Below, one piece after another: positions 22,570 through 64,000 of a stretch of DNA of 64,000 bases (its first letter is position 1; each line of letters starts with the position of its first letter). Source of the stretch: Congeria kusceri (Eukaryota; Mollusca; Bivalvia; Myida; Dreissenidae). The notes below the pieces were generated by a model. It made no database searches. It had not been told where the DNA came from and was given only the letters and a program-made list of their open reading frames with translations. The translations under genes and the position numbers were made by a program. Where the stretch lies: NCBI GenBank assembly GCA_027627225.1, contig CM051040.1:25230134-25294133 (forward strand), given 5' to 3'.

Positions 22570-24370
22570 CAAAACAAGAGCTGATAAATGAAAAGAAGCA
22601 ATTGCGCCAGCATTAAAGACAATCATATGCACGAAGAAAAAATCACATCTGTCCGAAGTAATAAAAGCATCAACCACAGATAACAAACTTTTCTATAAAT
22701 TGATAAATGAACAGAGAAGTACAGCCAACGCAAATGTACAAATTCTGAATGTGAATGGAGAGGACATGACAGGGACAGAGAGGATTCTACATGAATTGAA
22801 AACTCACTTCCAGATGATATCGTATAAGGACAATGATAGGTGAAATCAAGCACTTAAACAAAATGTTGTATCCTGTGTAAATTCATAGTCAGAGACCGTC
22901 AATTCACACAGGATGTTGTATCATGTGTGAATTGACGGTCTCTGACTATGAATTCACACAGGATACAACACAAAATACCATAATATAGCAAGACATTCTT
23001 GACAGTAAGGAAACTCTGAAGCCAGCTACACAATCTGAAGTGACGAATGCGATAAAATCTTTCAATACAGGCAAGGCTGCCGACAGCAACGGCATCTTCA
23101 GTGAACATTTCAATTACGATGATCGTGAATTAGTACCAATATTGACAGACATTATAAATACAATATTTAATGAATTGGATTTCCCAGAATCACTTAAATA
23201 TGGAATCCTCACTCCAATCCGAAAGAAGGGACAAGACAATCTGCTTACTAACAATTACTGTAGTCTCTGATACTTGCGCCAAGCTGCACATTAAAAGTTT
23301 GAATTTGGATAAAAGATAATTAATTGTTGTAAAACCAACCGGTGGAAGTAACTTTGGAAGGGCAAAAGGACTCAACTGTGTCAGACCTAAAACATCTTGG
23401 TATTGTAAGGAACAGTTACAACACAGTGGATGTAGATGTCGGGCTACAGACCGCACAGAAAACTATGTAAACTCTGTTAGGACCAGGTCTTCACGCAAAA
23501 TAAGTGATGTCCCTACTTGTCTCATACCAAATGTGGGAAACTATTGTTATACCTAGATTCCTGTATGGGATTAAGGTCCAAAACCTCTCAAAACAAATTA
23601 TAAGAAACTAAACAATATCAAAGAAAAATCGTCAAACATCTTCAATACCGAAATCAGAAGAGTATAAAATTATGACCAGACAGCTTGCTATTTCAACTAT
23701 TCACTGCACATATTCGCATGATCCTAACTAAATATGATCTTCAAACACCTGAAGAAATCTTACAGGACGTACCAACAAAACGCAGATGGAAGCGGATATT
23801 TTGAACGACGATCAAGTCAATGTTCATAGGCAGGATGTCTGGACCAAAGAAATCACGTTCAAATTCTTTACAAAATACTTTCAAGTTCATGAAATCAATC
23901 GTTGGGTAAGCCCACAATTTACGTAAAGTAGCACAACCCAGACTTCACGAGGTGCTACGTGCAGAAATAAAGGCCCGGGACTTGACCGGTACCTACATCC
24001 TACAAAGCAACACTGCCAAATTTATTCAGAATGTTGTTTCAGCAGTATGCAATTCAAGCTATGTAAACAGGTAGATGAAACAATGGATCGAGTACCTTCT
24101 TGTGAAATGTACTTCGTTCAAGACCATTAAACAGGAAAATCTTCTCAAAATGCAGTCCATAATAGCAGATGATGTCACCTACCAAACCATTATACAGGAT
24201 GATGATCTTCTAACTTATGTTATCCTTGACTGCACACATACCACTCAAGCTAGCAGAGTAAAGCTAAACAAAGGCCAAAAACTTTACATCGAGAGATGAT
24301 CCCATGTATACTGCGAACGCCTCATCCGAACAAGAAACCGTATTTTATATAGCAATGAGGGTATCTAATG
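22570..24370 (+). pseudogene. Dead LINE (non-LTR retrotransposon) reverse transcriptase remnant
   Basis: Translated pieces match LINE ORF2. A pre-RT part contains LFYKLINEQRSTANANVQIL (near 22688). An RT part has AIKSFNTGKAADSNGIFSEH, FPESLKYGILTPIRKKGQ and NNYCS at 23050-23270, the box that normally reads TPVHKKG...NYR. A late C-terminal part is at 24075-24300 (QSIIADDVTYQTIIQDDD, LDCTHTTQASRVK). The catalytic YADD box is missing and all frames are broken. A 107 bp palindrome interrupts it at 22864-22970. Confidence 0.75.
22864..22970. repeat. Near-perfect palindrome: 47 bp arms, 13 bp loop
   Basis: Left arm 22864-22910 and right arm 22924-22970 are reverse complements with one mismatch (GTAAATTCAT against ATGAATTCAC). 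The loop repeats the outer end sequence (GGATGTTGTATCA), so the palindrome looks like an inverted duplication of one 50-60 bp piece. It lies inside the LINE remnant. Confidence 0.9.
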
Positions 24371-26684: not shown

Positions 26685-26855
26685 ATGAAGATGCCTGCAC
26701 CATCTACTGAGGTGCTACATGGGCAGGTTCGGATTACGAGCAGCCAGAATGGATGTGATAAGTATAAGACAGGCGCCCTCATACTCGAGTGTAATGGATA
26801 CGGCCAATACCAAATAGCAGTCCGTTTCAATTGTGGGCCTGTTAGGACATTTGTA
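26685..26855 (+). CDS. USP37: USP37 exon 1: start codon, PH-like domain part 1
   Basis: 57 codons from ATG, ending GPVRTFV, with donor GTAAGTAC in phase 0. Contains VLHGQVRITSSQNGCDKYKT, like the N-terminal strand of the USP37 PH-like domain. A second ATG two codons on is an alternative start. Confidence 0.85.
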
Positions 26856-44800: not shown

Positions 44801-47800
44801 ACGGCTATACTCATAATGCGGACGATTATTGGCATCTTAACTAGGTTTTCTGTAAATTTTTTGTATTTTTTGTTGCAGACCTCCAAGGGGGAATTTTTCC
44901 ATTTTTATGAGGGAAAAAGCCATACTTTTCAGGTGGGGAAATGGGGCCGATATTCGGCGGCAAAAAAACGTAGATTGAGGGCCCTGGTTGTGCAAATTTT
45001 GACCTATTTGTAATGCATTTTCGTGAGAGTGTTATTGTTTGAAAAGCTCTGCAAGTAAAAAAGCACATGATCATGTAGATCATCAACAGTTCGCATGATG
45101 GAATTATGTCACATGTATATGTTAGGTTACGCTTCATTATTCTAAACTAAAACATCCAGCAGAAGTGTGGTATTCCTAAATATTTAAATATTGTTTTATG
45201 TGCTAAATTATTATCTGTATGCAGTTAAAACATGTTTATATTTTGAAAAAGAAAACAATCATGCACATTAAAGAGTTTGCCTGGTTTCAGATGTGGGGAG
45301 CAGGTTAGCAAGGAAGAGCAGTTCCATGACATTTCTTTGGATGTTCCTAGACAGAAGTGAGTAGCAGCTATAGCTCACTTACAGCAAACATGATATGTTC
45401 TTGTCCTGTCAGTATCATAATGTTTACCTCTATGACTTGTTGCATGAAAACTCCTATGTTATTTTTTATCTGTTGCGTCAACAAATAAAAATGACTTTCA
45501 GTTCAATAAACATTATCACAGCGGGAGCAGAAATACATATTCTGGCAAACACAATTCTGTTTTGAGAGAATTCAGCATGTTTGTTGTGTTAATTATGCCC
45601 GCCATCCAAGATGGCAGATTATCTTGGTTTGCTTAATATGTCGGTCGGTCTGTCGGTAGAGCCCTTCGTTTCCGCTCTCATGGTCAGTTTTCATCCGATC
45701 TTCATCAAACTTCATGAAAATGTTTGAGGGCATTATATCTAGCCAAGTACGGTGATCAACCAAATTGCCCCAGGAACTGCAGAGTTATGGCCCTAGATTT
45801 ATCTTAAATTTGCCTTTTTAGCAGTTTTCATCCGATATTCACCAAACTTCATATTTTAAAAATTTGCTCTTGTTACATTACAATTGCTGTTATCTATATG
45901 CAATTAAAAAAACAAGCAAACAAATATATTGTTTTCTTATGTTATTTGTTAATTTGAGCCACCCTCCCATATTACAGAAACACCATTTTATTTTACGCTT
46001 TCCGATGGTTTATAGGGAAATGTCAGTAAAATAAAATTGGGAGTTCACTGTTTCATAACAGTGAAAATTTACACCTTGATAATGGAACTACGTTTTCACC
46101 AGGAAGTTGAAAAAATACAAAAATACCACATTTTTAAGTATAAAATAAAAAATATAATTTGTTGGTTTTGGTAGAATATCGATGTTTGATTCATTCAAGA
46201 TCATAAAAAATAGATATTTTCAAATTTTCACTCGTAGCTGCGCCACACGTGAAAATATAAATTTATATGGTCACTCGTGTATTAAAATCGGTATTCTGCT
46301 GTAACCAACAAATATCCTCTATATAATTCCCTCATCTCAAAGCAATGGATGGCTTGCCCCAAAACTTAAAGAGGTCATTGTAAATACCTATGCTTCATTT
46401 ATACATTACAGACTAAGACAGTCACACATAATGTAAGATTAACTCCCATTTACAGAGCCCCACTGACGCCACGCTCGCTGCAGGACGCCATCAGCCTGTT
46501 CTTCCGCAACGAGCAGATAGAGTACACCTGTGAGAAGTGCGGCCACAAGAAGTCAGATGTCACACATAAGATCACGCGACTGCCCAGGTAAGCAGGCTGT
46601 GTCCATCTGGTACATTAATATTGCAGGGTGTCCAAGGACTGGAAAGCTGGAAAAAGTGAAAGAGAAAAAGCCCCTGAAAAGAGGAAGTTTTTCATCTGAT
46701 CTTTACCAAACTTCATGAAAATGTTTTTGGGCATACTATCTAGGTCAAGTTTGATAATCAGCCAAATCGCCCCAGAAATTGTGGAGTTATGGCCCTTGGC
46801 ATATATGTAAATTGGCCTTTTAGCCATTTCCGCTCTCTAAGTCCAACAGTTTTCATCCTATCTTCACCAATCTTCATGAAAATGTTGGTAATAATAATAT
46901 CTATGTCAAGTTCTATAATCAGCCAAATTGCCCCAGGAAGTGTGGAGTTATTGCCCTTGAATTGTCTGAAATTAGACTTTTAAGCTGTTTCCGCTGTCAA
47001 GTCAAACAAATGTTCATCCAATCTTCATCAAACTGTATGAACATGTTTGTGGGCATAATGTCTTGGCCAAATTGCCCCAAGAATTGTTGAGTTATGGGCC
47101 TTGAATTATCTAAAATTTGCCTTTTTAGCAGTTTCTGTCTCTAAAGTCCAACAGTTCATAGCCGATCTTCATCAAACTTGTTGAAAATATTTGTTGGCAT
47201 ATTATCTCTGTTAAGTTTGATAATCAACCAAATTTTCTCAGTAACTGTATGGCCCTTGATTATCAAAAATTAGCTGTTTTAGCTATTTAACCTAGAAGAG
47301 GGCATAACTGTTTTACAAACAGCTCTTGTTCATACTGGCTTGAACATTTGTTAACACTGGATTGAACCATTGTTGACACTGGCTGGAATCTTTGTAAAAC
47401 ACTGGCTTGAACTGCATTTCTTCCAGGGTCTTCATCCTGCATCTGAAGCGCTACACGTACAGTCAGGCAGTAGCCAAGAACACCAAGATGGGACAGAGTG
47501 TGTCGATACCCAGGTTCCTCACCTTTGATTACCACTGCACAGAGAAGACACAGCCGCCATTCCCACCTGAGCTGCCACCTATAGGATGCAGGTTAGAGAA
47601 CGAAAAGGTTATACTATGATCTCATTCTACCCGTTTTGCATCTGCAATTAGGCTGCTTTCCCCTGCAAAAAACTAATGTAATTTTCTCCATCAGATAGCA
47701 AAATATCCCCAGCATTACTATTGAAACAATATCAGCGATTATTCAATATATTATCTATATTAATCCTGGCATATAAGTTCCATAAAATCAAATATACTGT

Positions 47801-50800
47801 GGTTCCTACACAATCCTTTTCAGTAAAACCAGAGATCTAAATAATTTTGAACTCACTTTTGTGAGTTTGTTTTAATTGCAAAATTGTAGGACCTAAACTT
47901 ACCAGACAATTCAGATCTACTTAAAATTTGAAAAAGTAAAAAAAAATGTGTCTTGCTAGCTGCATTGGCACGAATCATCCACCCCCGGGTTTTCCCCGTG
48001 GGTTTTACGGGTTTTTACCGCCCCGGTCAATACTCTGAAAGTGGGCAATACTGGGCAGTACTATTTTTTCTTCAGGTAATATGCAGTTTTAATTGATTGA
48101 TAAATCTAAATGCTCTGTTAACTTATGTCATTAAGAAAATGACTTGTTTAGTTTTGCAGATCCAATATATGCATATATAGTTACAGTATTTTTGTAAGTG
48201 CCGGCACATATCCACTGGCTCATTCATTCATTTTTCGATGGCAACGCTTATCATGAAATATTTTCTATTTTGTTTGTGAAATATTTCTTTATTTCTTGCA
48301 TTGAATTGTTCTTTTTTGTTAACAATAAAAGTTAGGGAGGCCGTCTCTGGATAATAATGCAAGCCTTTCTATATTATTATTATCTGATATTGGGCAATAC
48401 CGGGGATAACTGGACAAATCACATTTTATCTTCTTTTTTCATTACTTACTTTCGTTTTTTCACTTTGAAAGCAGGATTGTTAATGATGAAGCAATAAATA
48501 GTTATTATTTTTATACTGATACACAATTAACAGCTGGGATCAGTCACTTAAAGGTGCCAATCAATGCATGTTTTCATGGTTTGGAAAAGGCCCCTAATTG
48601 ACATGAGCCTTTGCCTGGCCCCACTTGCATAGATCTGTCAATTCAATCAATATTGGTGTTTGTTTAAGAGGGTGTACATATTGTGAATGGGTCATAAATG
48701 ATATCACAATGTGTCATTAATTTGATGTACGGCATGGGGCTGCAACAGGGTCTTAATGCAACATGACATCAACTAACATATTTTATAACACAAGAATATG
48801 TTAGAATTGTCAATTTTCTCTTATACATTCATTTCCTCTTTTTCTTCCATAAAAATAATTCTGTTACATTATACAACTATATACTGAGAAAAATATAAGG
48901 AAAGTGACCAAAAAATCCAACTTAAATTTCGGAAACACAAAATCAAGCGTATTTGGACGCATATTTTTTCAAAAGGACGCATGTCAAACCCATGCCAGGA
49001 GTCCTTGGGACGCATGCTTTTTGGCTTACTGCATATACCCTGTTACTTAACACATACATGAGTGCCTGCAGTAAAGTCGGCAGTAGTCGCGATAAAATCA
49101 ATATCGGCCCCAGTACACACTGCAGCTGTCAAAGACATGACAAGACATAAATTAACAATGCTGGCGGTAATTGAAGTACACAATTTTACAGCGTCACATA
49201 TTTTTGCAACCTCGCGAAAATTTTCGTCGCCGATTTTACAGGTCACAAACGTGTAAAACGCATGCAAACACATACTTTGGTGTTTAATATCACCAATAAT
49301 TGCTCCTTTTTACATTTTTGTCTCGTTAGCCGATTCACAATTACTCTACTTGACAGTAACTTATGCTGTACTGTAATCACCGCATCATAACTTTTTACAC
49401 ATTACAAATAAGTCAACAAGTTTAGACCATCAATTGCTAATTGTCCAGAATTTACCTGTTTTAAAATTAATTATTGGTACACAAATATTGTTTTATAAGA
49501 CATGATTAAGTATTATATATTATCATTATAATTGCATAAACCATTAAAAATAATATAAAGAATAATAATATTATAAAGAATAATAATACTTATTATTATT
49601 ATCATGATTATTATTTTATTTGTATCTGTCATATATTGTATAAATGAATAAATTGTAAAAATTCCATTCACTTTCGCGTGTCATAAACATAAATTTTATT
49701 TCTTTTCTACTTGGGACTCCTACTTTTTAGGGGGAAGTAGTCCCAGGACTCCTATTTTAAAATCCTAGTCAGATCCCTGGAAATTATAAAAATGTTTCCA
49801 CATGAAATAGAAATAAACAATGTAACTTACATTATATAATTGTTATTAGATATGTGTTTATATGTAGAAATTCATTATTAGTGTGTAATGTAAACATAAT
49901 TGTACAATATCTGTTTTCCCCAGTATTGCCCACTTTTGCCCTGTAAAACCCAGTTTTTACCAGTATTACCCGCCCGGGCCGGTTAATACTATAAAACCCG
50001 GGTTTTATGCCAACCCTGCTTGCTAGAGAAAGACTGCACCGTGCTGCTACACTGGGGTGGTCAACAGAGGAATGTCACATATATTTTGTATTGTTTGCCT
50101 ATACTTGTGCCAAAAAAAATGACGGTGTTTAAAAATGTTAATTGTTTGCTGAAAATGGTATGCATGTTTACAGCAGCCCCAGTGTTCCTGTTAGTACGAC
50201 CAAGGAAGACACTGCCAGCAGGAGGAAGCTGGACTACTCGGGGTGAGAACAGTGGTCTGGTATACAGATATTTTATAAGCATTTGGGAACAGTCAAATTA
50301 TTTTCCTGAAGTAGAAGGGGCTTTTTTTAACTGATGCCCCGAGGCCTTTAGGCCAAGGGCAACATTTAAAATTATTATACCTCACTTGATTATTTCTCTA
50401 TATAATGCATATAAACTGCTGCGGGCAACAATTTGATATGTCGCCCGTGAATGTCGCCCGCTACAGCTATGTAGCTAGGTACGCAAATGATACGGGATTT
50501 AGCTTAATTTAAAGTCTGTGTCATGTAGAGGTTTGATTATTTATATTTCTGTATCAGACGACATTGATCATCATGGCAAGGTTTGCAAGTATTTCGGAGT
50601 CAGATTTAATTTAACTGTTAGACTTTAAAAAACCTATTGTTGTGAGATATTACTACATCTGTTAAAATATTAAACTTACGTAATTGATTCCTTTACTTTG
50701 ATTTTGTTCGGTATAATAAAATTAATATTGACTTCCATGAGGGTGACAGTGCGTCTCGTCACCCCTCTCCAAGACGCACTGTCACCGTCAAGGAAGTCAA

Positions 50801-53800
50801 TATTAATATAATGTTGCTATCACTACTGAAGGAAAACAATTAGGCTGTTTCCAGATGACTGTGAAATGTCTTTTTTATTAACTGCTTACAATAATAAATA
50901 AAAGACAGCATTTAATTTTTATTTATTTTCCATGAAAACTTAACATACAGACTACAAAATAGAACAATCATTAAACTGTCTCCTGCATGTAACAGTCAGT
51001 AGCAGTTCGTGTTACCATAAAGTAACATTGCGCAACGTTCTGCGCATGTTGCTCCCCTTTGAATAAGGATGAGTACAACATAACGAAACAAAGCCGTGAA
51101 ACATCACAAAATGTTGCCTGTTGGGTGGAGCTTGTTTGAACAAAGTGGTAAATAGTAAAAAGCTCTTAATTATTATTTATACAGTAAAGTAGGTAATAAT
51201 AGAACATGTTTCATACCCTTGTTAACAGTCACACATTGTAATCGGTTGATTTCAAAGCCATGGACCAGGGATCATGTTATTTTCGGTTTTGCCAGTCAGA
51301 GACTGATTCTATTTGAAAAAGTCCGATTGAAATTACTGGTATTCGGTCCGACCATTTTTCTTAAATAATCCAGTCACTATAAAGGTCATGATAATTCCCT
51401 GATTTCAATACACAATACACATTTTATGGCCCCAATGCCCTGTAGGTGCGATTGCTGGTGGATCAGTGATGGGTGAATGACCCCAGTCGTGTCATGATCA
51501 GTCGATAATTGGAGTGCTTTTGTTGTAATTTGTTGACTGTGTTAATTACCGACAAAGAAATCAGGGTGTACTTCTCCTCGATAAAATCGTGTCCAGTTAC
51601 TATAGAGACTGATAATAGCAACTGGATGTAATCCTCTTGGAAAACATGCATTTGCTGCATATTTGGTTTAATTGACGTTTATGACGTCACATACTTAATT
51701 TTGACAAGTTCAAAGTGACCATATTGTATTACATTATATTTTAACTTAATTTCAGCTAAAATCATATAACAGGCATAAAATTAAAGTTTATTGAAGTTTG
51801 ATGTATGAAAACTTTGTTGTTTCTATTAATAATGAAAATACACATTTACTGACATGCCTTATTTTTTGGATACACATAATTCGGATACACAATGAGCATT
51901 TTATTGAACTGATTGTATGCCTATCTTTAAATTTTGTGTAGTTAAAACACATAATAGACATAGAAATTATAATTTCTTGAAGTTTGAGGTGTGAAAACTG
52001 TGATAATAGTTACTGGTGGGCGAGTAGTATCCGTGAACTAGCAGTATACGTGATTTGTATATTAAAAGGTGTAAAAGCTCTCCAGCATTGAATGTTGAGT
52101 TTACACACATCACCTAGCAACTGTTCCAAATGCAGAATAAGTTGAAGTCTCCAAAACTTCATAGCTTTCAAGATATTTACATTGTTCTTAAAAAAAAATC
52201 TCAAAACAACTTAACATCTTTGCGGATGCGCATAAATATATAATTGAACCCCTATTTTTATCTTTTACTTCCCTGTTTTCGGTTTACCAACGGTGATAGC
52301 TTGGTTATTCACATAAAGCAGCAATTTTAGTATTCAAACAACACCATCCATATATTCAACACGCATTTTTCGTGAAATATATTTTCTAAAAAAAAAGATG
52401 AATTGCAATTGCAAAATGTTTACTCAAAGCAAATATTAGCACAGAATTGCAATTTTAAAATGTCAATTATGCGGCTAGTTTCGGGATGATTTTGACAAAA
52501 TTTCAATGCATGAGGGATGTCTACTTTTATAATAACATGGTTATCTCCCGTTTACCATCAGCAAATGTTTAAGGGGCGCCAAAGGGGTCATCAAAAGACC
52601 ATTTTCCGGCATCCACTTATGTTAGTAATTGCCTTATCACCGCTAATCTGGCATAGAATTTAATAATATTACATCATTATGATGTAGGTAATATAATATA
52701 GAACAGTATAGAGCAATTAAAATCTTGAGGTGTGTACCACAAAATTCGCATTTTCAACTGAAAGGAAAGATCACGGATGCTACTAGTTTTATTGCTTCAA
52801 GTAATGCTTATTGTTTACCCCTTTTGAGACCCGTATATGGAAAAAACCATATGACGACATGACAAGATATTTACATCCTCGTAAACAGAAGGAGCCCAAC
52901 TTTATACGGCAACAAGCTTTTCTTTAAAAGAATTAATTACGCGACTGAAAATAAAGAAAAACTACAAAAAAATCACGGATACTACTCGCCACCCAGTATA
53001 CTTTAGAATACGCATTTTCATACATGCACCATATGCGGATACACATAATTCTGATCCAACATAAGAGTGATAGGCCGACCTCAAGAACCAATCACTTTCC
53101 AGAAAAATATGATCCCTTCTGTGGACTGTTGTTAATTGTACAGGCACATAAGGAGATTAAATCAATGCATTGCCCCCCACAGGCCATAGATCCCCAGAAA
53201 ATTGTTGATTTTCGAATAGAAATTGTTTTGCACTTATAACATCTGAATTATTACGTTAAAATGTAGTTATATTTAAAGAAGTAAAGTTGACAAATTGATT
53301 AACAGAACAGAAATTATATTCCCCTACCTATTTCTTTTTCGCGTCTCAACTTAAACTGAACTTTTATGCTTGAATCAAAGCTGCTAATCGTAACGTTTTG
53401 TTATAGTGGTATATTTGTTGAAAAATGTGTTTGTGCCATGATTTATTGTTGTAGAAAAAAATAGTTAGTATGCTAAAAAAAAATCCTCTTTATACAACGT
53501 AGGTACAGATTCAAAAGCAACCATGCACACCCAACAAAATCTGAAAAGGAAGAAGCTAGTGACAGTAAAGACAAGGTAAGTTTCACCACTCCCATTCATT
53601 TCTACAATTGCTTTTTTGAAAGATTTTGAGTTACAAAGTGCCAACAAAATGAATCCCATTTGAATCAGTATTTAAATGCATTTGTAAAATATTGCAAATT
53701 GTAAAAAAGCTTTTTAGTTTTAAAGTGGATGGATATTTATAGAAAGTACGGGTAGTTTAATATTGGGTGCATTGAGTATTGTAGGTGTTTTAAGTGCAAC

Positions 53801-56800
53801 ATAATCCATATTTATTAAGTAAATATTGCCAATATGCAAATATTACCTGTTGGGTCGCGTAACCACAAACAAGCAATTTTTTTTACGGATGGCTGTTTTT
53901 GGAAATTTTGTGGGATATGTTTGTTGTTCACTTTATATGGGTAGTTACTGTTTATAGTATCAGAAGACAATCATTTGCTTTGCCCCATTAAATAAGGAAA
54001 AACCACTGCCAATGTTTTTTTTGCCTGGCAGAGGGACGAGATAGACGGGCGCCCGAGGTCGTGGGCACTGACCCTGGAGGATGAAGAGGACCCGGAGATC
54101 GCCCGGGCAATAGAGATGTCCCTCAGGGAGGAGGAAACCCGGGAAAAGGTAGGGCTCAGTCAGAGCTCCAGATAAGAGGGGTATTTGTGTAAATACCCTT
54201 TAAAATATTGCAAATACCCTTTAGAAATTGTAAATAGGGGTACAAGTACCATTTAGAAAATTAAAGTGAGGGTACTGATCAACAATGAAATCTTGCCAAA
54301 AACGTATTAACGCTGCTCAGTTGGTTGACACATACCCCCGGTTGTTGCTGGACAGCCCAATGTATTAGAAGTCCAAATTAGGTCAAGGTCAAAGTGAGTT
54401 TGGGTAATATGGGTGGATTTGGAATGGTCATAAGCAACAACCGTTTAAGTGTTGTTTTAAGCAGTGTTGGTGCTAAATGAAATGATAAAATTTAGTTAAC
54501 CTCATACAAACGGAATCACGGAAGGACCTGACAATCACTGTATGCCTCAAGATGCCAGGGGCATGAAACATGTTCTTTTAAGTCTGAAAGGATTTCTTTA
54601 GTGGTGGCAGTGGTTACTGAAGACCACTAAGGGAAAGTAACTGCTGGGATGAGTATGAATATCGATTTGCAGAAATCGGGCCTCCATGGGGGCATGCTTT
54701 TTTCCTTATATGGCTATATTGAAAAAATCAGATATTACTCGGAAACCACTTCTGGGAATTCCAAATAAATTCACAGAAACTTCCCTTGACCCTCTACCAA
54801 ATTGCTTCCAAGTAATACTAATTTTGATCCGTCAAAAATCACGGCTGCCAAGGGGAAGGGCAGTTTTCCTTATACATGGTTAAATGATAACTGACAATCT
54901 TCTCATCGGAAACTATTTGACTGATTGTGTTTTTGGCTCGAAGTAAGCACTTGCAGACTTGCAACATGGAAGTACAAAATTAGTTTTGTGAGTTAATTTT
55001 TCTCTTGCTCAGAAAAAACTTACTTGTAAAGAATATGTGTACATAACAACAAGGCATGCATGGGTTTGTGGTTTTTTATCAAGAAATATTATGTCTTATA
55101 ATTTAGAACATAATCAAAAAACACATTCCACAGAAATTATTGTCCACCATGTCTTTCAACGGAAATACCCATAGATAAATATACATTGTATTGACAAATG
55201 CCCAGTTATGAACCCATGGGTTACACGCAACTATATGATAGGTTTTGCTATTAATTAATAGAATTGCGCGAAGGAACTTTTGTGCGAGTTAAAATATAAG
55301 CCACTCACCGTTATTTGCCAGTTGCAAAAATAATTTCGAGCTGTGTGTTTATGTTGCAGCTGTGTGAGGATTATGGGGAGGACAGCAGCCTGGAGAAGGC
55401 CCTGGAGATGAGCAGGAGGGACATCAGTACCTGTGGAGGTAGGTCTCACTTAGAGCTGTGTGAGGGGTATGGGGAGGACAGCAGCCTGGAGAGGGCACTG
55501 GAGATGAGCAGGAGGGACATCAGTACCTGTGGAGGTAGGTCTCACTATGGGGAGGACAGCAGCCTGGAGAAGGCCCTGGAGATGAGCAGGAGGGACATCA
55601 GTACCTGTGGAGGTAGGTCTCACTTAGAGCTGTGTGAGGAGTATGGGGAGGACAGCAGCCTGGAGAGGGCACTGGAGATGAGCAGGAGGGACATCAGTAC
55701 CTGTGGAGGTAGGTCTCACTATGGGGAGGACAGCAGCCTGGAGAGGGCACTGGAGATGAGCAGGAGGGACATCAGTACCTGTGGAGGTAGGTCTCACTTA
55801 GAGCTGTGTGAGGAGTATGGGGAGGACAGCAGCCTGGAGAGGGCACTGGAGATGAGCAGGAGGGACATCAATACATGTGGAGGTAGGTCTCACTATGGGG
55901 AGGACAGCAGCCTGGAGACGGCCCTAGAGATGAGCAGGAGGGACATCAATACCTGTGGAGGTAGGTCTCACTATGGGGAGGACAGTAGCCTGGAGATGAG
56001 CAGGAGGGACATCAATACCTGTGGAGGTAGGTCTCACTATGGGGAGGACAGCAGCCTGGAGAGGGCACTGGAGATGAGCAGGAGGGACATCAGTACCTGT
56101 GGAGGTAGGTCTCACTTAGAGCTGTGTGAGGAGTATGGGGAGGACAGCAGCCTGGAGAGGGCACTGGAGATGAGCAGGAGGGACATCAGTACCTGTGGAG
56201 GTAGGTCTCACTATGGGGAGGACAGCAGCCTGGAGAAGGCCCTGGAGATGAGCAGGAGGGACATCAGTACCTGTGGAGGTAGGTCTCACTTAGAGCTGTG
56301 TGAGGGGTATGGGGAGGACAGCAGCCTGGAGAGGGCACTGGAGATGAGCAGGAGGGACATCAGTACCTGTGGAGGTAGGTCTCACTATGGGGAGGACAGC
56401 AGCCTGGAGAAGGCCCTGGAGATGAGCAGGAGGGACATCAGTACCTGTGGAGGTAGGTCTCACTTAGAGCTGTGTGAGGAGTATGGGGAGGACAGCAGCC
56501 TGGAGAGGGCACTGGAGATGAGCAGGAGGGACATCAATACATGTGGAGGTAGGTCTCACTATGGGGAGGACAGCAGCCTGGAGACGGCCCTAGAGATGAG
56601 CAGGAGGGACATCAATACCTGTGGAGGTAGGTCTCACTATGGGGAGGACAGTAGCCTGGAGATGAGCAGGAGGGACATCAATACCTGTGGAGGTAGGTCT
56701 CACTATGGGGAGGACAGCAGCCTGGAGAGGGCACTGGAGATGAGCAGGAGGGACATCAGTACCTGTGGAGGTAGGTCTCACTTAGAGCTGTGTGAGGAGT

Positions 56801-59800
56801 ATGGGGAGGACAGCAGCCTGGAGAGGGCACTGGAGATGAGCAGGAGGGACATCAGTACCTGTGGAGGTAGGTCTCACTATGGGGAGGACAGCAGCCTGGA
56901 GAGGGCACTGGAGATGAGCAGGAGGGACATCAGTACCTGTGGAGGTAGGTCTCACTTAGAGCTGTGTGAGGAGTATGGGGAGGACAGCAGCCTGGAGAGG
57001 GCACTGGAGATGAGCAGGAGGGACATCAGTACCTGTGGTCGTAGGTCTCATTATGGGGAGGACAGCAGTCTGGAGTGGGCACTGGAGATGAGCAGGAGGG
57101 ACATCAGTACCTGTGGAGGTAGGTCTCAGAGCTGTGTGAGGAGTATGGGGAGGACGGCAGCCTGGAGAGGGCACTGGAGATGAGCAGGAGGGACATCAGT
57201 ACCTGTGGAGGTAGGTCTCACTATGGGGAGGACAGCAGCCTGGAGAGGGCACTGGAGATGAGCAGGAGGGACATCAGTACCTGTGGAGGTACGTCTCATT
57301 ATGGGGAGGACAGCAGCCTGGAGAAGGCACTGGAGATGAGCAGGAGGGACATCAGTACCTGTGGAGGTAGGTCTCACTATGGGGAGGACAGCAGCCTGGA
57401 GAGGGCACTGGAGATGAGCAGGAGGGACATCAGTACCTGTGGAGGTAGGTCTCACTTAGAGCTGTGTGAGGAGTATGGGGAGGACAGCAGCCTGGAGAGG
57501 GCACTGGAGATGAGCAGGAGGGACATCAATGCCTGTGGAGGTAGGTCTCACTATGGGGACGACAGCAGCCTGGAGAGGGCCCTAGAGATGAGCAGGAGGG
57601 ACATCAGTACCTGTGGAGGTAGGTCTCACTTATAGGCTGCCACTGAACTGTATGATCAGTCAGGGGTTGTTTATGTGTGAGGAGTATGGGGAGGACAGCA
57701 GCCTGGAGAGAGCCCTAAAGATGAGCAGGAGGGACATCAGTACCTGTGGAGGTAGGTCACATTTATAGGCTGCCACTGAACTGTATGATCAGTCAGGGGC
57801 TGTTTATGTGTGCATAAGTTACAGATAAGCACCAGTGGGGGTTAGTCTCACATGTATGCTGGAAACATGAACCTGGCACTGAACGTTCTGATTAGTCAGC
57901 ATTGATTTTTAAGGCCATTGTGAGACCGAAATAGGGCCGCATTTCCCAAGTTCATGTGTATATATCTTTCACCCAAACTCAAAATTTTCCACCTTGATCT
58001 CTTACATCATCGCTTGATGAAGAAACCAACAAAATTATCAGTACCTATTTTCACGTTAAAACAAGGGTAAAGGGCTATGCTGATTGTTTGTATAACGGAA
58101 GATAAAAGTGATTTGCAATAAATCTTTCTGATGTCATGTGTACCAGCAACAACTGAGTTGTGTTGGAATGCCAGTTATTTTTGCCTTAACAGGTTTCATT
58201 CTGTTAACAGTATGGTTCATTCTGTGTGAAAATCATTTCGTTCAAATCTGTTTATTTTAGCTCGATTGCTTCAAAAGCCTAAGGCTTATTGAGACACTCT
58301 CAAGTCTTTTTCCTGGGTAGAACCAGTACTTGGTGCCTTTGGGGGAGATCTTGAGTACGCTTCCAGATTGGGGATCGAACCGGGAACCTCCCGACCGCTA
58401 GGCGGACACTATATCCACTACGCCACCGCGACCTCAAAACGATTTGATTATGCTTCAGCTGTAGAACTGTGTTAAACTGTTATTAACAGTATTCACATGT
58501 CTTGTATTGCAGCCAGTGTAGAGTCCAGTAATGTCAATGAGATGACCTTTGAAGAACAGATTGAACTTGCAATGAGACAGAGCTTGATTGAGTCTCATCA
58601 CTATGGCAACCATTTGTTCTCTGATGATGTCGCTGATAATGGTGCTCATGAAGGTAAAATAGTTCAACAAGGGAACACAAGTCTTGATGATGTCATCAGT
58701 GACAGTGACACTGAAACAGCTCAAAGATTAGTCCGTGTAAATGGAGTAACAGGTAAAAACAGGACCACACAAAATGATGATGTCACCAATAATGGTGATC
58801 ACGAGTACACCAAATCTGACGACTCGTCTGAGGAACCATTGTGTAGGCTAACAAACAATAAAGCCAACTCGTACGATATTTGCCCAGAGGCTGTGCAGTA
58901 TTCCGCACTGCGATCTGTGAAGTCAAATAAAGAAAGCTGTAAAGTTTTAGAACAAAATACGTCTGAAAGTGAAATCAGTTTCGTAAATACAGAGGACTCC
59001 CAAGATGAAGACACTGCTTTGAAACAAACCCCAGAACATTCTAGTCCAGTGGCAGATCTCGGTAGTGCTGAGAGTAACACCAGCCATTCTGCTGAAGAGG
59101 AACGTATGAATGGCAAGTTGGAATGGAGTGAACAGAGGCCGACACCTGGAAAGAAGTGGGGAGATCGTGTAAAGAAATTAACTCAGGAAATTTGTGCGGA
59201 AAACTACCCGTTTTCTACAGACGAGAATGAGAGTGATGCAGAGGAGGCCGACCTTCTTTGTAGAGAGAAACTGGATGACACAGATGGGGAGTCTGACCTG
59301 GAGATGGGCGGGATGCGGAGGAAAGTGAAAGGAGGATGCCGGGAAGTGACCGCACAGGAAGACAAGATGGATGATGGGGATGGTAGGTCGTCCATCTGTG
59401 GGTTTGTATGTTAAGGTCTTGGGAATAATTTACCAATCAGATTGGGCAATGATTACAAGTTGAAAAATTGTCAGAAGAGTGTGGATGTATGACAATAATT
59501 ATGTTAAATTAAAATCAAGTTTATGCTATTTTGATTTTTAGCTCTACTATTCACCAAATAGTTTGAGCTATACTACTCACCCATTCGTCGGCGTAATGCT
59601 CTGGTTACGGTTTGCGTGAAACATGTCAAAGGTTTGCGTGAAACATGTCCATATCTCTGTTAATACTAACAGATATTCTATTGAAACTTCACACATGTGT
59701 TAGGGGTCATTATGTGAGGTCACTGACCAAGGCCCATAACTCTGACCTGCAATTTAGCAGAATTATGCCCCTTTTTGTATTTAGAAAATCAGGTTATCTC

Positions 59801-61657
59801 CATATCTACTACAGATATTCAACTGAAACTTCACACATGGCTTCAGAGTCATTATATAAGGTCACTGGCCAAGACCCATAACTGTGACCAGCATTTTAGC
59901 AGAATTATGCATCTGTTTGTACTTAAAAATGTCAGGTTAAGGTGTGCGTGCAAGAGGACATTCAGGTTAAGGTTTGTGTGCAACAAGTCCATATCTCTGT
60001 AACTACTACGGATATTCAATTGAAACTTCACATATGTGTTCGGGGTCATTATTTGAGGTCACTGACCAAGGCCCATAACTCTGACCTGCAATTTACCAGA
60101 ATTATGCCCCTTTTTGCACTTTGAAAATCAGTTTAAAGTTTGCGTGCAACCACTCCATATCTCTATATATACTCTGATATTCAATTCAAACTTCGCACAT
60201 GCCTTCAGGGTCATTATATAAGGTCACTGGCCAAGACCCATAATGTGATTTTAGCAGAAGTATGCCCCTTATGCCCCTTTTTGTACTTACAAAAGTCAGG
60301 TTAAGGTTTGTGTGCAACAACTCCATATCTCTGTTTGGATTTTTCGCCATTTTTAACAGTGTTTCAGTCATATTACGGCGGTCAGTTAACCCACTCACAC
60401 TTCCTGGGCAGGCTTAGCCGATCTAAGCGGTTTACCAGTACTAAGTGCACATACCCATCCCAGTAACTGACAACTGCCCTACTTGAATCAGAGGTAGGGG
60501 AGAATGGCGGTATTAATAATTTCATGACAAATCCCCACACAAGTTATATGGCTGGGCTTGGGTTCGAACTCACAATCCCCAGATTGACAGTCCAACGCTC
60601 TACCAACTGAGCTAGCCGGGCCCGGCAAACTCCATATCTCTATAACTCGAGAACAGGTTGAGCTCTTTTAGTGAAACTTCATACATAGATACTATATAGC
60701 GAGGCCTCACTTGCGATTGCATATGTGGTGGGTGGGGTCAAGGTCAGAGTTACTACAAGTAGAAAAACAGTTTCCACTCAATAACCTTGAGAACGCATTG
60801 AGATATTTTAATAAAACTTAATACATAGATACCTTATATCTAGACCTCGCTTGGGATTGCATATGGGTGGGGTCAAGGTCCAGGTCAATGTTACTAAAAA
60901 TAGAAAAAAGGTTTCGGCTCATTAAATTGTGAAAGCATTAAGATATTGTAATAAAACTTCATACATAGATACCTTATATCGAAACCTTGCTTGGGATTAC
61001 GTATAAAATGTGGGTGGGGTCAAGGTCACTGTTACTAAAAATAGAAAAACTTTTTCCCCTCTATAACTTGAGAACGCAATGAGATATTTTAATGAAACTT
61101 AATACATAGATACCTTATATCGAGACTTCGCTTTGGATTGCATATGGGGTGGGTGGGGTCAAGGTCACTGTTACTAAAAATAGAAAAATGGTTTCCGCTC
61201 AATATTTTCTTGTTTGTAGTGATAAAGGCCCATAACTCTGACAAAGCTCTTGAATAGTCAAGCTCCCTGTCCTGAGACGGCTCTTGTTTGAGTTAAAATA
61301 GTGTGTTTTGTTTTATTGCTTCCTTGGAGTATCATTAGTAAATTAATAGGCATTGTAATAATTATTATTAAATATATTTGGAATACTCAACAAAACTTTG
61401 TGAATGACAACTTGTGATAAAGTTTTGAGTAGTTTAAATTTTTTGCTATCATGCCTCTAGATACCTGGCTAGCAGCAATAGATGATAAGGAAAACACGGT
61501 GCCAAATACTGCTGGTGATGTCTCCATGGATACACCACAGTCTGACCTCTTGACCCCTCGTCTCTCCGACCCCATGGCAGAGTTTGATGACGATACAGAG
61601 GAGTCGGTAGGGGTCGACATTGAAGGCATCAACGATCTGCCAGATATAAATAATGAG
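26685..61657 (+). CDS. USP37: USP37-like ubiquitin carboxyl-terminal hydrolase, 18 exons, 3' end beyond the window
   Basis: Cysteine protease that removes ubiquitin from substrates. Vertebrate USP37 acts in the nucleus at G1/S on cyclin A and replication factors and is itself controlled by APC/C-Cdh1. All 18 exons have GT-AG borders and join in phase. With one UIM unit in exon 16 they encode about 1,004 residues; with 21 units, about 1,564. Order: PH-like domain (residues 1-115), linker, catalytic Cys in NLGNTCYMNAILQS (Cys about 258), DAHELLCQ, CxxC pairs LTCLQCGE and YTCEKCGH, the LHLKRY segment (about 485-490), UIM 1 (DPEIARAIEMSLRE), the UIM array, another UIM (FEEQIELAMRQSLIE), and a KEN box (DDKENT). 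The His/Asp boxes of the active site and the last UIMs are expected after 61657. I chose the ATG at 26685 because HGQVRITS follows, aligning with the human start (IHGPIRIRS). Introns hold many transposons. Confidence 0.9.
26971..27221. mobile_element. Palindromic MITE, copy B
   Basis: In USP37 intron 1. Ends TTGTGGGAAAACCGGGCTTA and the inverse AAGCCCGGTTTTCCCACGAC. The inner half carries a 40-50 bp perfect palindrome around GGATTAGCCTGTGC. Same family as copy A at 9809. Confidence 0.88.
27390..27561 (+). CDS. USP37: USP37 exon 2: PH-like domain part 2
   Basis: Acceptor GATTGCAG, donor GTATAA, phase 0 in and 1 out. The product starts VSQSNLSKNIIKEQACYIEI and ends LSAFCDSVKKSGST, fitting the strand and C-terminal helix of the PH-like domain. 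The open frame continues 269 bp past the donor, which I take as intron read-through. Confidence 0.88.
28451..29295. mobile_element. 845 bp MITE or DNA transposon with TA duplication
   Basis: In intron 2. CCGTAAAATACCAAGTATAG is matched in inverse by CTTTTACGG with TATACGTGGTC inside (29272-29295). TA flanks both ends (28449-28450, 29296-29297), as in Tc1/mariner/pogo-type elements. No transposase seen. Confidence 0.75.
29618..29747 (+). CDS. USP37: USP37 exon 3: linker
   Basis: Acceptor GCGTTGTAG, donor GTAATG, phase 1 in and 2 out. Product ASFNSKAEVGLSSTPDTG, then QKSRLFTTFGSNN and AAHNFTR. Low complexity and polar, as in the region after the PH-like domain of USP37. Confidence 0.75.
29779..30669. 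mobile_element. ~890 bp inverted-repeat element
   Basis: In intron 3. GAGGGCTGTCCCAGTAAATT at 29779 is matched in inverse by AATTTACTGGGACAACCCTC ending at 30669. A 36 bp end fragment of the palindromic MITE (CGCACATGCATTAAGCCCGG) sits inside near 30369. The coding sequence is too decayed to name. Confidence 0.7.
31638..31720 (+). repeat. Tandem duplication of the exon 4 acceptor region
   Basis: GCCCTGTTTATGCTCCATCA and the following ATGTAATATTGCAG are present twice, 46-47 bp apart, each ending in a usable AG. The first AG would add 46 bp (TGTGAAAGCCC...) and shift the frame, so the second is taken as the working site. Confidence 0.85.
31721..31780 (+). CDS. USP37: USP37 exon 4: linker with KEN-like motif
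   Basis: 60 bp, phase 2 in and out. Acceptor ATATTGCAG, donor GTAAGC. Product SVKSVKKEDKENVSMNVPYH. The acceptor region is duplicated just upstream (31638-31674 against 31684-31720). The DKEN here is a second possible KEN degron. Confidence 0.7.
31809..32057. mobile_element. Palindromic MITE, copy C
   Basis: In intron 4, just after exon 4. Same inner motifs (GTCGTCCCGGATTAGCCTG, ATGCATTAAGCCC) but more diverged ends (TCATGGAACAACCGGGC). Same family as copies A, B and D. Confidence 0.85.
32196..32578. mobile_element. Short inverted-repeat element
   Basis: In intron 4. CCAGTGTTTCTTTTCACC near 32197 faces CTTGAAAAAACACTG near 32565. The interior has GGGGAAAGGTGGGG and GAATTTCGGCCCCAAATTGG. Small remnants with similar GGGGAAT sequence occur near 36390 and 42780. 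Confidence 0.55.
32742..32816 (+). CDS. USP37: USP37 exon 5: linker
   Basis: 75 bp, phase 2 in and out, acceptor TTATTTTGTAG. Product QFYGTSSMVTSTPLLKTK, then PVRTFMA. FYG matches the human SSSFYGS position. Its last 31 or so bases plus donor GTAAGA are repeated four more times downstream. Confidence 0.78.
32785..33110 (+). repeat. Five tandem copies of the exon 5 end and its 5' splice site
   Basis: 62 bp units at 32861, 32923, 32985 and 33047, plus the true exon end at 32785. Each has CTTTATGGCTGG followed by GTAAGACAG. The first spacing is 76 bp owing to an extra CAGATCCAATTAGA. Use of the second donor would shift the frame, and the third or later meets a TAG, so only the first keeps the protein intact. 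The later units look identical, so the expansion is recent. Confidence 0.92.
33333..34529. mobile_element. ~1.2 kb inverted-repeat transposon with internal 157 bp duplication
   Basis: In intron 5. TACCAGCATGCCCATTCACG is matched in inverse by TTAGTGGGCATGCTGTTACG. A 157 bp segment is directly duplicated (33976-34131, 34133-34288). A part near 33751-33820 (CCATGTGGAGGGTTGTGAGT) has an inverse relative near 44500-44630, inside another element. Confidence 0.7.
34740..36144 (+). mobile_element. Non-autonomous element with ~160 bp tandem core and terminal hairpin
   Basis: In intron 5. Five or six core units carry CACCAGAGTTATTGCCC and TTTGTCTATGACCATAAGAT (34800-35650). The end is the hairpin GGGCCATCATGGCCC (36124-36138) then TCTTGT. 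The open frames inside are repeat frames, not genes. Confidence 0.72.
36200..36340 (+). CDS. USP37: USP37 exon 6: linker before the catalytic domain
   Basis: Acceptor TGTTTATTTAG, donor GTAGGG, phase 2 in and out. Product GKRVSGMMPDPTPTKRPRLL through SKPTLQLQLQ, matching the Gln-rich QLQGFSNLG junction of human USP37. KRPR is a possible nuclear localisation signal. Confidence 0.85.
36725..36856 (+). CDS. USP37: USP37 exon 7: Cys box
   Basis: Acceptor CTGTTTGCAG, donor GTACTC, phase 2 in and out. Product GFSNLGNTCYMNAILQSLYG, then LDTFTLDLHANRRILK and PQSLY. The Cys in NTCYMN is the catalytic nucleophile of C19 peptidases (about residue 258). Confidence 0.93.
37192..37571 (+). mobile_element. 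Foldback-type element, orientation 1
   Basis: In intron 7. Hairpin arms (TTGACTTCCTTGAGGGTGAC against GTCACCCTCAAGGAAGTCAA) enclose a GAGGCAACACTGTCAACC stem. Then comes unique sequence with GACATAGCGGTAGCGGGCGA and TTGCCCGCTGCAG. An inverted relative is at 50372-50808. Confidence 0.8.
37777..37906 (+). CDS. USP37: USP37 exon 8
   Basis: A pyrimidine tract leads to acceptor CCCTGGCCAG; the donor is GTAAGT; phase 2 in, 0 out. Product SSFVKLMYVRRNQTASDH, then KKEYLRRMKSAISSTAKRFS and GYGQH. Human equivalent: KKVKNAISATAERFSGYMQN. Confidence 0.9.
37929..38138. mobile_element. Palindromic MITE, copy D
   Basis: In intron 8, directly after exon 8. Shorter than the other copies (about 210 bp) because the middle is deleted (GATCCAGGACTTACTTGAAA). 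The ends AAAACCGGGCTTAATGC and GCATTAAGCCCGGTTTTCCC are intact. Confidence 0.85.
38971..39171. mobile_element. ~200 bp MITE
   Basis: In intron 8. AGGGCTGTTCCAAGAAAAAA and the inverse TTTTTTTCTGGAACAGCTCT, each next to G- or C-rich sequence (GGTTGGGGGTG, CACCCCCTCG). It has no coding potential. Confidence 0.75.
40806..40975 (-). repeat. SINE body fragment
   Basis: TTTGGATTTTTCGCCATATT through CAGAGGTAGGGGGAGAATGG is closely similar to the body of the SINE at 60333-60626. The tRNA-like head is missing, cut by the element starting at 40999. Confidence 0.75.
40999..41665. mobile_element. 667 bp inverted-repeat element
   Basis: CCAGTCTCCGCGAAAG and the inverse TTTAGCGGAGACTGG end the element. 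Inside are paired motifs (GACCTCGGACATTGCC; GGTCCTCGTGTCCGG and GGTCCTCGTGACC). It has no coding potential. Confidence 0.65.
42275..43187. other. End of USP37 intron 8
   Basis: AT-rich, with a short remnant (GGGGAATTTTTTTACCAGAA near 42784) like those at 32.2 and 36.4 kb. Nothing else recognised before the exon 9 acceptor. Confidence 0.45.
43188..43420 (+). CDS. USP37: USP37 exon 9: DAHE box and first CxxC
   Basis: Acceptor CATGTATGTAG, donor GTAAGC, phase 0 in and 2 out. Starts DAHELLCQVLDQLKEEII (family: DAHEFL). It then has a small internal duplication (GDHAPGG...GDHAPGD, about 43290-43340) absent from human, and ITVNFEFEVLHTLTCLQ, where the Cys is the first of a CxxC completed by exon 10. 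Confidence 0.92.
43451..44986. mobile_element. ~1.5 kb inverted-repeat transposon, no intact transposase
   Basis: In intron 9. CAGGGCCCTCAATCAG and the inverse GATTGAGGGCCCTG are the ends, and GGAGGGGGAA/CCAAGGGGGAA type sequence lies just inside both. The interior shares a stretch near 44500-44630 with the element at 33333-34529. Confidence 0.68.
45291..45356 (+). CDS. USP37: USP37 exon 10
   Basis: 66 bp, phase 2 in and out. Acceptor CTGGTTTCAG, donor GTGAGT. Product QCGEQVSKEEQFHDISLDVP then RQK. It completes CLQCGE, matching human CKACGE followed by EQFNDLSIDLPR. Confidence 0.92.
45590..45874 (+). mobile_element. Truncated tandem-core element ending GCTCTTGTT
   Basis: In intron 10. ATTATGCCCGCCATCCAAGA, then one or two core units with TTTTCATCCGATCTTCATCA and CCCCAGGAACTGCAGAGTTA, ending GCTCTTGTTAC. 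Same core family as 46680-47330. Confidence 0.65.
46456..46587 (+). CDS. USP37: USP37 exon 11: second CxxC
   Basis: 132 bp, acceptor CATTTACAG, donor GTAAGC, phase 2 in and out. Product KAPLTPRSLQDAISLFF, then EQIEYTCEKCGHKKSD and KITRLP. It matches human SLDLFFRAEELEYSCEKCGG. The CEKC pair is the second half of the structural zinc site. Confidence 0.93.
46680..47330 (+). mobile_element. Tandem-core element (about four ~150 bp units)
   Basis: In intron 11. Units carry TTTTCATCCTATCTTCACCA and CAGCCAAATTGCCCCAGGAA. The end is the hairpin CTGTTTTACAAACAG (47308-47322) then CTCTTGTT. The start is truncated. Confidence 0.68.
47427..47591 (+). CDS. USP37: USP37 exon 12: LHLKRY segment
   Basis: 165 bp, acceptor TTTCTTCCAG, donor GTTAGA, phase 2 in and out. 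Product RVFILHLKRYTYSQAVAKN, then KMGQSVSIPRFLTFDYHCTE and KTQPPFPPELPPIGC. Closely parallel to human LPRVLILHLKRYSF...IPRYLTLSSHCTENTKPPF. Confidence 0.93.
47985..50013. mobile_element. ~2.0 kb inverted-repeat transposon in intron 12
   Basis: Left end CCCGGGTTTTCCCCGTGGG, TTTTACCGCCCCGGTCAATA and AGTGGGCAATACTGGGCAGT. Right end in inverse: CCAGTATTGCCCACTTTTGC, then CAGTATTACCCGCCCGGGCC and AAACCCGGGTTTTATGC. The interior is AT-rich with no recognised transposase. The left arm is about 80 bp long. Confidence 0.72.
50174..50242 (+). CDS. USP37: USP37 exon 13
   Basis: 69 bp, acceptor TGTTTACAG, donor GTGAGA, phase 2 in and out. Product SSPSVPVSTTKEDTASRR then KLDYSG. The position fits human SPSTPSKKFTFKS and LCLDSD, in the insert that splits the catalytic domain. 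Confidence 0.8.
50372..50808 (-). mobile_element. Foldback-type element, orientation 2
   Basis: In intron 13. Inverse copy of 37192-37571: CTGCTGCGGGCAACAATTTG and CGCCCGCTACAGC come first, the hairpin TTGACTTCCATGAGGGTGAC / GTCACCGTCAAGGAAGTCAA last. The two copies face each other across exons 8-13. Confidence 0.8.
50820..53500. other. Rest of USP37 intron 13
   Basis: No exon or clear element. Two related tracts of about 30 bp (GTATACGTGATTTG near 52044; GGATACTACTCGCCACCCAG near 52977, with GTGGGCGAGTAGTATCC near 52017) form a loose inverted pair about 970 bp apart, possibly the ends of another decayed element. Confidence 0.4.
53503..53575 (+). CDS. USP37: USP37 exon 14
   Basis: 73 bp, acceptor TACAACGTAG, donor GTAAGT, phase 2 in and 0 out. 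Product GYRFKSNHAHPTKSEKEE then ASDSKDK, a charged linker. Support is mainly splice signals and phase. Confidence 0.72.
54032..54148 (+). CDS. USP37: USP37 exon 15: UIM-type motif
   Basis: 117 bp, phase 0 in and out, acceptor TTGCCTGGCAG, donor GTAGGG. Product RDEIDGRPRSWALTLEDEED, then PEIARAIEMSLREEETREK. Acidic residues then I-x-x-A-I-E-M-S-L fit the ubiquitin-interacting motif (Ala and Ser at the binding face). Confidence 0.88.
54149..55359. other. USP37 intron 15
   Basis: AT-rich. It contains a tract of GTAAATACCCTTTAAAATATT-like repeats near 54190-54250 and otherwise nothing recognised. The exon 16 acceptor has a usable pyrimidine tract (TGTGTGTTTATGTTGCAG). Confidence 0.4.
55360..57118 (+). 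CDS. USP37: USP37 exon 16: tandem UIM array (1 to 21 in-frame units)
   Basis: After acceptor TTTATGTTGCAG the exon starts LCEDYGEDSSLEKALEMSRR and ends DISTCGG at the first donor (GTAGGT, exon 55360-55438, phase 1). The same segment then repeats without a new acceptor. Units of 78 bp (26 residues), 96 bp (with LELCEE or LELCEG) or 66 bp keep one open frame through 21 units to 57118. Each has L-E-(K/R/T/W)-A-L-E-M-S-R-R-D, a good UIM helix, except units 8 and 16, which lost four residues including the Ala. Every unit ends in GGAG/GTAGGT in phase 1, matching the phase-1 acceptor at 58513, so any donor gives an in-frame protein. The choice of end is unknown: the short form is closest to human USP37, whose UIM here is AAVLEISKRDAS. 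Confidence 0.75.
55360..57754 (+). repeat. 28-unit UIM-exon tandem array with higher-order repeats
   Basis: Twenty-eight recognisable units. Units 1-21 share one frame. A 4 bp deletion at about 57127 (CTCAGAGCTG for CTCACTTAGAGCTG) shifts the frame, and units 22-27 are open in the new frame to a TAG at 57635. Unit 28 (about 57675-57754) is set off by intron-like sequence. Units 6-9 and 14-17 are the same series (R, T, deleted, R variants) 666 bp apart, pointing to unequal exchange of multi-unit blocks. Composition is GC-richer than the flanks. Confidence 0.95.
58263..58435 (-). repeat. tRNA-derived SINE in intron 16
   Basis: On the minus strand the head reads GCGGTGGCGTAGTGGATATA (A-box-like) and, about 40 bases on, CCCGGTTCGATCCCC (B box GGTTCGATCCC at 58381-58371). 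A tail with CCTTAGGCTTTTGAAGC follows. It is not a functional tRNA gene: no proper cloverleaf or acceptor stem. Confidence 0.8.
58513..59382 (+). CDS. USP37: USP37 exon 17: UIM and long acidic region
   Basis: 870 bp, acceptor CTTGTATTGCAG, donor GTAGGT, phase 1 in and out. Starts ASVESSNVNEMTFEEQIELA then MRQSLIESHHYG, another UIM. It continues as a Ser/Asp/Glu-rich, probably disordered stretch (SDSDTETAQR, SSEEPLCRL, SAEEERMNGK, DTDGESDLEMGG) likely to hold phosphorylation sites. This region is longer than the human counterpart. Confidence 0.88.
59540..61289 (+). mobile_element. Tandem-core element interrupted by a SINE
   Basis: In intron 17. Starts TAGCTCTACTATTCACCAAA. It has two kinds of core unit: 59600-60330 (CATATCTCTGTAACTACTAC, GGCCCATAACTCTGACCTGC) and 60640-61240 (GGGTGGGGTCAAGGTCACTG, about four units). 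The end is CTGTCCTGAGACGG hairpin then CTCTTGTT. Open frames here follow the repeat. Confidence 0.72.
60333..60626 (-). repeat. Full-length tRNA-derived SINE
   Basis: Minus-strand head 60626-60551: GCTAGCTCAGTTGGTAGAGC (A box), a stem-loop with GTC in the anticodon position, and GAGTTCGAACCCAAGCC (B box). The head is therefore tRNA-like, resembling tRNA-Asp. The body to 60333 matches the fragment at 40806. It is inserted in the tandem-core element. Confidence 0.85.
61461..61657 (+). CDS. USP37: USP37 exon 18: KEN box
   Basis: 197 bp, acceptor ATGCCTCTAG, donor GTACAG, phase 1 in and 0 out. Product DTWLAAIDDKENTVPNTAGD through GVDIEGINDLPDINNE. The KEN triplet matches the Cdh1-binding degron of human USP37 (ENKENKT). 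Multiple TP/SP sites (MDTPQS, LLTPRLSDP) could be CDK targets. Confidence 0.88.
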
Positions 61658-61900
61658 GTACAGCAGTGTATCAATTAAGATTGGTTCCACCATGGCTAGT
61701 GTTTCCTTTCAGAAATGTTTTTCATTGAGTCATTTGTATGTAAATATCAAGCTTAAATTTACTGGATCTGTTTTGAGATGAGTTTTTGTGAAACTATTGA
61801 TGGGTGTTTCTGCAATCTGGTGTTGCAGATAAGAAAATCGAATATACATGTATCTCACTATTAATTGTATATGTGAAATATTTTTTTATTCATTGCAATC

Positions 61901-63942: not shown

Positions 63943-64000
63943 AATGTATCTTTATATATTTTGTTTTTCTATTTTGCAATATCAGAGCTGACTGCCTTTC

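Follow-up and report, generated by a model that had tools for sequence, protein, structure and literature searches.

The DNA analyzed here (the window) is a stretch of 64,000 nucleotides from the bivalve Congeria kusceri, located at C17:25230134-25294133 in a contig of 47.4 Mb; the assembly comprises 1.549 Gb in 1071 contigs. Judged by sequence comparison, the array-bearing gene of the window is USP37, which encodes a deubiquitinase. In one of its exons, which encodes a ubiquitin-interacting motif (UIM), the exon end has been repeated in a tandem array of 28 units with a donor-like splice site in each. This array is real and unusual.

The USP37 gene

Zebra mussel USP37 (P0001) was aligned to the window by tblastn, and it matched exon after exon from 26691 to about 61660. 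The later exons were found in the sequence beyond the window (L009, Table 1). For the partial protein assembled from nine exons, zebra mussel USP37 was the top relative among the 120 listed of 693 matches. The two are identical in 520 of 803 aligned columns (gaps counted), and their identity is 77% in an alignment of 16 sequences that includes the window protein (A1). Thus, the assignment to USP37 made in the original prediction was confirmed by the first match and by the exon-by-exon mapping. The catalytic domain matched Pfam UCH with 110.1 bits, and both the Cys box and the His box of USP37 were found. The UIM exons, which start at 54032, 55360 and 58513, all lie between the Cys-box and His-box exons; the UIMs are thus inserted in the catalytic domain.

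A complete USP37 was located at a single locus in the assembly, and no second full locus was detected among the best-scoring candidates in the genome. From the exon-by-exon map, its continuation in L009 and the absence of a second full locus, we conclude that the gene is intact and apparently single-copy. A second copy as a working gene was rejected, since the other matches among the best candidates scored were only pieces like query positions 46-96 and a 33%-identity match on C8. Stretches resembling this N-terminal part of USP37 (query 46-96) lie at C10:5563634-5563792, C40:1155775-1155933 and C120:553239-553397, with one stop in each.

To meet the acceptor at 58513 in frame, the exon starting at 55360 has to end in phase 1. 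Splicing at the first donor gives a 79-nucleotide (nt) exon and a protein colinear with zebra mussel USP37. Skipping of this exon was rejected because 79 nt between phases 0 and 1 would shift the frame.

Table 1. Positions of USP37 and of the elements of its array (window coordinates unless L009 is given)
Feature	Position	Strand	Remarks
USP37 gene body in the window	26691..61660	+	First matched codon to last window exon, end approximate; tblastn with zebra mussel USP37 (P0001)
USP37 C-terminal exons, outside the window	L009 624-692, 1527-1676, 2662-2730		Matched to zebra mussel USP37, including the His-box end
Exon ending in phase 0 that carries the first UIM (IARAIEMSLRE)	54032..54148	+	Zebra mussel USP37 mapping
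Ancestral-type exon of 79 nt (phase 0 to 1), comprising unit 1 as far as the first donor	55360..55438	+	Colinear with the single UIM of P0001
Units 1-21, open in one frame, with 19 UIM cores intact and 20 of 21 phase-1 donor positions identical	55360..57118	+	
Unit 8, 66 nt, without RALE	55972..56037	+	Still in frame; no UIM core
Unit 16, 66 nt, deletion shared with unit 8	56638..56703	+	Block duplication
Unit 20 donor, changed to GTC/GTAGGT, probably weak	57034..57046	+	
Units 22-28, preceded by the loss of 4 nt that breaks the frame after unit 21	57119..57751	+	A premature stop at 57181 would result from use of donors 22-28
Longer stub, seemingly original intron, between units 27 and 28 (133-nt step)	57619..57684	+	
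Next exon, phase 1 acceptor, third UIM (IELAMRQSLIE)	58513..59382	+	Zebra mussel USP37 mapping

Structure of the array and its donor sites

The 28 tandem units between 55360 and 57751 contain 27 exact copies of the core GAGATGAGCAGGAGGGACATCA and, in unit 28, one AAGATG variant, in agreement with the number originally predicted. Throughout the genome (1.55 Gb), the 22-nt core has 27 exact matches, all in this array. From the start of one unit to the start of the next, the distance is 96, 78 or 66 nt in units 1-20, 92 nt in unit 21, 78 or 96 nt in units 22-26 and 133 nt in unit 27. A full unit repeats TATGGGG...TGTGGAG/GTAGGTCTCAC (the slash marks the splice point), to which the 96-nt units add TTAGAGCTGTGTGAGGAG; units 1 and 11 have GGG for the last GAG. 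On our reading, a unit would consist of the exon end, the donor and an intron stub of 11 or 17 nt. When this intron stub is read through, it encodes GRSH or GRSHLE without a stop.

As had been predicted, units 1-21 lie within a single stop-to-stop open reading frame (ORF) of 627 amino acids (55300-57183). Stops occur in both other frames within those units. Since copies inherit openness, the open state of the 21 units is not 21 independent events. The frame is broken after unit 21, and because of the 4-nt loss there, donors 22-28 lead to a stop at 57181. All 21 donor positions of units 1-21 give exon lengths of 3n+1 from 55360, ranging from 79 to 1759 nt. The claim that they fit the phase 1 acceptor at 58513 was therefore correct. 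On the minus strand of the array, ORFs of up to 109 amino acids are present. No Rfam match was detected in the array at the gathering threshold in a scan of 50000-64000.

The donor GAG/GTAGGT is identical in 26 of the 28 units; the exceptions are units 20 and 23. By a rough score, the 26 identical donors (5.19) occupied ranks 1-26 among the 270 GT sites in 54150-58512, followed by an intronic site at 54394 (5.0), the unit 23 donor GAG/GTACGT (4.4) and a site at 54266 (3.6). The donors of seven other USP37 exons scored from 0.19 to 7.03 on the same rough scale. With unit 20, the site reads GGTC/GTAGGT and scored -1.6 versus 5.2. Thus, the prediction of one GGAG/GTAGGT donor in every unit from 1 to 21 holds for 20 of them and fails at unit 20.

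Among the 364 AG sites inside the array, the best scored 0.9, versus 2.2-8.2 for nine USP37 acceptors (rough score). No convincing internal acceptor is therefore present, in line with the original prediction, and array units as separate exons were rejected. The copies do not each possess an acceptor and a donor of their own, as tandemly duplicated exons would. The tandem units start from an exon end and each carry a donor-like site (26 identical, two variant), which is the arrangement of a donor-site minisatellite. GGA, which we take to be an SRSF1 motif, occurs 82.8 times per kb in the array versus 12.2 in the window; this high density is compatible with an exonic character of the array. Donor choice here might depend on the balance of SRSF1 and hnRNP A1, an idea on which only the GGA count bears.

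Identity of the amplified UIM and origin of the array

The UIM core pattern L..A...S..D was found in 19 of the 21 in-frame units. In units 8 and 16, a 12-nt in-frame deletion removes RALE, so the core originally ascribed to every unit is missing from these two. As a whole, units 1-21 matched Pfam UIM with 48.1 bits (cut-off 21), and no single stretch passed alone. A later piece (57129-57629) gave 37.4 bits against the same cut-off, and four stretches of it passed alone. Since the unrelated families zf_C2HC_14, CjCas9_WED-like and DUF728 also exceeded their cut-offs on units 1-21, the whole-protein scores of the repeat are inflated. We take the amplified unit to be a UIM, as first proposed; this identity rests more on the core pattern and the alignment with relatives than on the Pfam score.

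No array was found in relatives among the best 120 of 693 matches. Each of them had between 0 and 4 matches to a loose UIM pattern, some of them false ones in the catalytic domain. Zebra mussel USP37 has one UIM of the amplified type, as first-donor splicing would give. In A1, in which this region is loosely conserved and the alignment uncertain, 10 of the 11 sequences P0001 to P0023 (P0006 is without a name) have a single copy of the amplified UIM, and the Mya model (P0005) has none. In the array columns, no intact UIM is seen in human and pike, and the hemichordate P0037 has a UIM-like stretch. Human UIM1 is aligned with the UIM at 58513; the amplified UIM has no partner among the three UIMs of the human protein. 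The original prediction had likened the array to the three vertebrate UIMs; that likeness is only loose.

An array-bearing protein was also searched for directly. With a 681-amino-acid query, none was detected among the best 120 of 693 matches. The array region of a 1241-amino-acid query gave one match, that of zebra mussel, when the 8000 candidates sharing most words were scored. With a 355-amino-acid query across the junctions, none was detected at E 0.001 among 4623 candidates, under length limits that exclude full-length USP37, that of zebra mussel included. Because repeats break short-read assemblies, an array-bearing protein may exist despite these negatives.

With the two short units set aside, the mean pairwise difference between units is 3.5%, and the 26 full-length ones fall into 11 distinct 67-nt forms. 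Variation affects 15 exon columns. Two exact repeats, one 487 nt long at an offset of 666 nt and one 325 nt long at an offset of 840 nt, indicate that blocks were duplicated recently. The 133-nt step between units 27 and 28 contains a longer stub of apparent intron and is perhaps a trace of an early duplication step.

In the 66-nt exon part of units 1-21, 6 silent and 4 amino-acid changes were counted, a slight excess of silent ones over expectation (P 0.0071, 0.0165 and 0.0254 at transition weights 1, 2 and 3). Over all 28 units, the counts were 7 and 8 (P 0.0202, 0.0475 and 0.0724 at the same weights). With the whole unit of units 1-21, 7 silent and 7 amino-acid changes were counted by hand (P 0.0156, 0.0388 and 0.0606). 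As a sign of coding, the silent excess in units 1-21 is a hint only.

Many other tandem arrays are present in the window. A 47-bp minisatellite of about 84 copies occupies 2881-6714, and further arrays lie at 8428-9003 (29 bp), 11363-13021 (165 bp), 17602-17917 (42 bp), 60638-61204 (141 bp) and 62973-63634 (166 bp). At 32838-33111, a 62-bp unit is repeated 4.4 times with 100% identity, and this array is probably very young. Thus, an array-forming process is common here, and the unusual feature of the USP37 array is that tandem repetition caught a coding exon end.

Elsewhere in the window, a tRNA-like match (Rfam, 34.1 bits; minus strand, 60550-60621), uncalled by ARAGORN, is probably a tRNA-derived short element. 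An ORF at 22989-23270, judged by eye, resembles a fragment of a reverse transcriptase of the non-long-terminal-repeat type.

Donor usage and significance

We favor, with a probability of about 0.55, the reading that the array is a recent coding minisatellite bearing donors, of which the first few are mainly used. The amplified minisatellite would straddle an exon-intron border of an intact USP37, with a unit that combines the 3' part of the UIM exon with the donor and an intron stub of 11-17 nt. The copies would extend the reading frame, as this stub is open and every step up to unit 20 is divisible by three. Since the in-frame donors all have the same phase, the spliceosome could stop at any of units 1-21, and the exon could end there and still yield USP37. 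Use would be highest for the donors nearest the real acceptor (unit 1 to a few), so that most products would have one copy of this UIM and some would have a few; longer forms would be rare, and donors 22-28 would lead to unproductive RNA. We infer the donor usage, and any effect on ubiquitin binding, from the sequence. The phases, the intact single gene, the colinearity of the first-donor form with zebra mussel USP37, the lack of an array in the listed relatives and the precedent of human IFI6 (below) all argue for this reading. The recent block duplication, the identity of the donor in 26 of the 28 units, the slight silent excess in units 1-21 and the GGA density also fit it.

Several points weigh against it. 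The donor and acceptor scores are rough, and of the nine acceptors scored, the one at 55360 came out lowest (2.2). Among competing donors, the one nearest the downstream acceptor is sometimes preferred, which would favor unit 28, an unproductive choice. The silent-change test is both small and post hoc, and it counts column states rather than reconstructed events. Moreover, its contrast between in-frame and out-of-frame units was not significant (units 22-28 have 1 silent and 4 amino-acid private changes; Fisher P 0.28).

If the array were only an intron minisatellite, all productive transcripts would use donor 1 (55438) and the other 27 units would be removed. This possibility, which we consider unlikely, would yield exactly the single UIM of zebra mussel USP37; it also agrees with the many other minisatellites in the window and with the failure to find an array-bearing protein in the protein searches. 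However, none of the nine scored bases differs between donor 1 and the donors of units 2-19 and 21, so that a strict preference would need a cause. The frame kept over 21 units in steps of 96, 78 and 66 nt, all multiples of three, and the slight silent excess also argue against it. At the other extreme, many of donors 1 to 21 might be used, as a broad ladder or a constant long form, and USP37 with up to 19 intact UIM copies would be a tunable polyubiquitin binder. The 20 identical in-phase donors, the one open frame, the lack of a convincing internal acceptor and the Pfam UIM match on the array as a whole fit such usage. Nevertheless, it seems rather doubtful: very long exons are often poorly recognized in genes with long introns, and zebra mussel and the other listed relatives are without such forms. 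The account of IFI6 names just two further repeat units as donors (PMC4526556). A regulated ladder, in which the 20 identical donors would give 1 to 19 intact UIM copies, the frame break would send overshoot to decay and allele length would add population variation, is equally doubtful. The ladder is thus a sharp hypothesis, possible but unproven.

Unit 28, or others of units 22-28, might be used so often that the array lowers USP37 output through the stop at 57181. These donors do lie beyond this stop, six of the seven are identical to the rest, and the intron from unit 28 would be the shortest (761 nt, versus 3074 from unit 1). However, the gene is otherwise intact and conserved, so enough productive splicing presumably remains, and we regard frequent use of these donors as highly improbable. 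Because the units are very similar, an assembly artefact, with the array length wrong or the array absent in the animal, was also considered. It is the least credible explanation, since the 2.4-kb array sits inside a 47.4-Mb contig, and its 15 variable exon columns and 11 distinct forms are unlike simple stutter.

As for known systems, human IFI6 (G1P3, 6-16) has a donor-site minisatellite whose units are 12 nt long and encode no domain; the first units of its array are those that serve as donors. The USP37 array differs in that its in-frame units are 66-96 nt long and each would add a UIM inside an enzyme. IFI6 repeat units act as splice donors and three mRNA species result, according to a paper that cites Turri, Cuin and Porter 1995 (PMC4526556). 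The likeness lies in tandem repeat units as alternative donors in IFI6 and a donor-like site in each USP37 unit. Donor use is reported for IFI6, whereas for the USP37 array it is a prediction. Vertebrate USP37 has three UIMs inserted in the catalytic domain, as in the window gene; UIM2 and UIM3 raise activity on chains, and human UIM1 makes no contribution to activity on K11, K48 and K63 chains (PMC6412040). The amplified UIM, in contrast, is without an intact human counterpart in A1, where the alignment is uncertain. In USP25, ataxin-3 and RAP80, linker-joined UIMs likewise bind ubiquitin chains together, but their abstracts describe two UIMs and no donor-bearing array. Mucin-type coding minisatellites are also exonic tandem repeats that vary in number, and we know of none with a splice donor in each unit.

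Thus, a donor minisatellite (IFI6) and UIMs in USP37 are known already; their combination, with a domain in each unit, was not found in the literature searched, which was a limited collection. The USP37 array offers a natural experiment on donor choice by the spliceosome where many identical sites lie in phase. Should donor 1 be the only one used, it has to be explained how the spliceosome passes over 19 others close by that are identical and in phase. If several are used, splicing and array length, which can both change fast, would determine how many domains an enzyme contains. The ladder, if true, would give a deubiquitinase a built-in ubiquitin trap of natural origin, adjustable in its number of UIMs, provided that the units bind ubiquitin as predicted.

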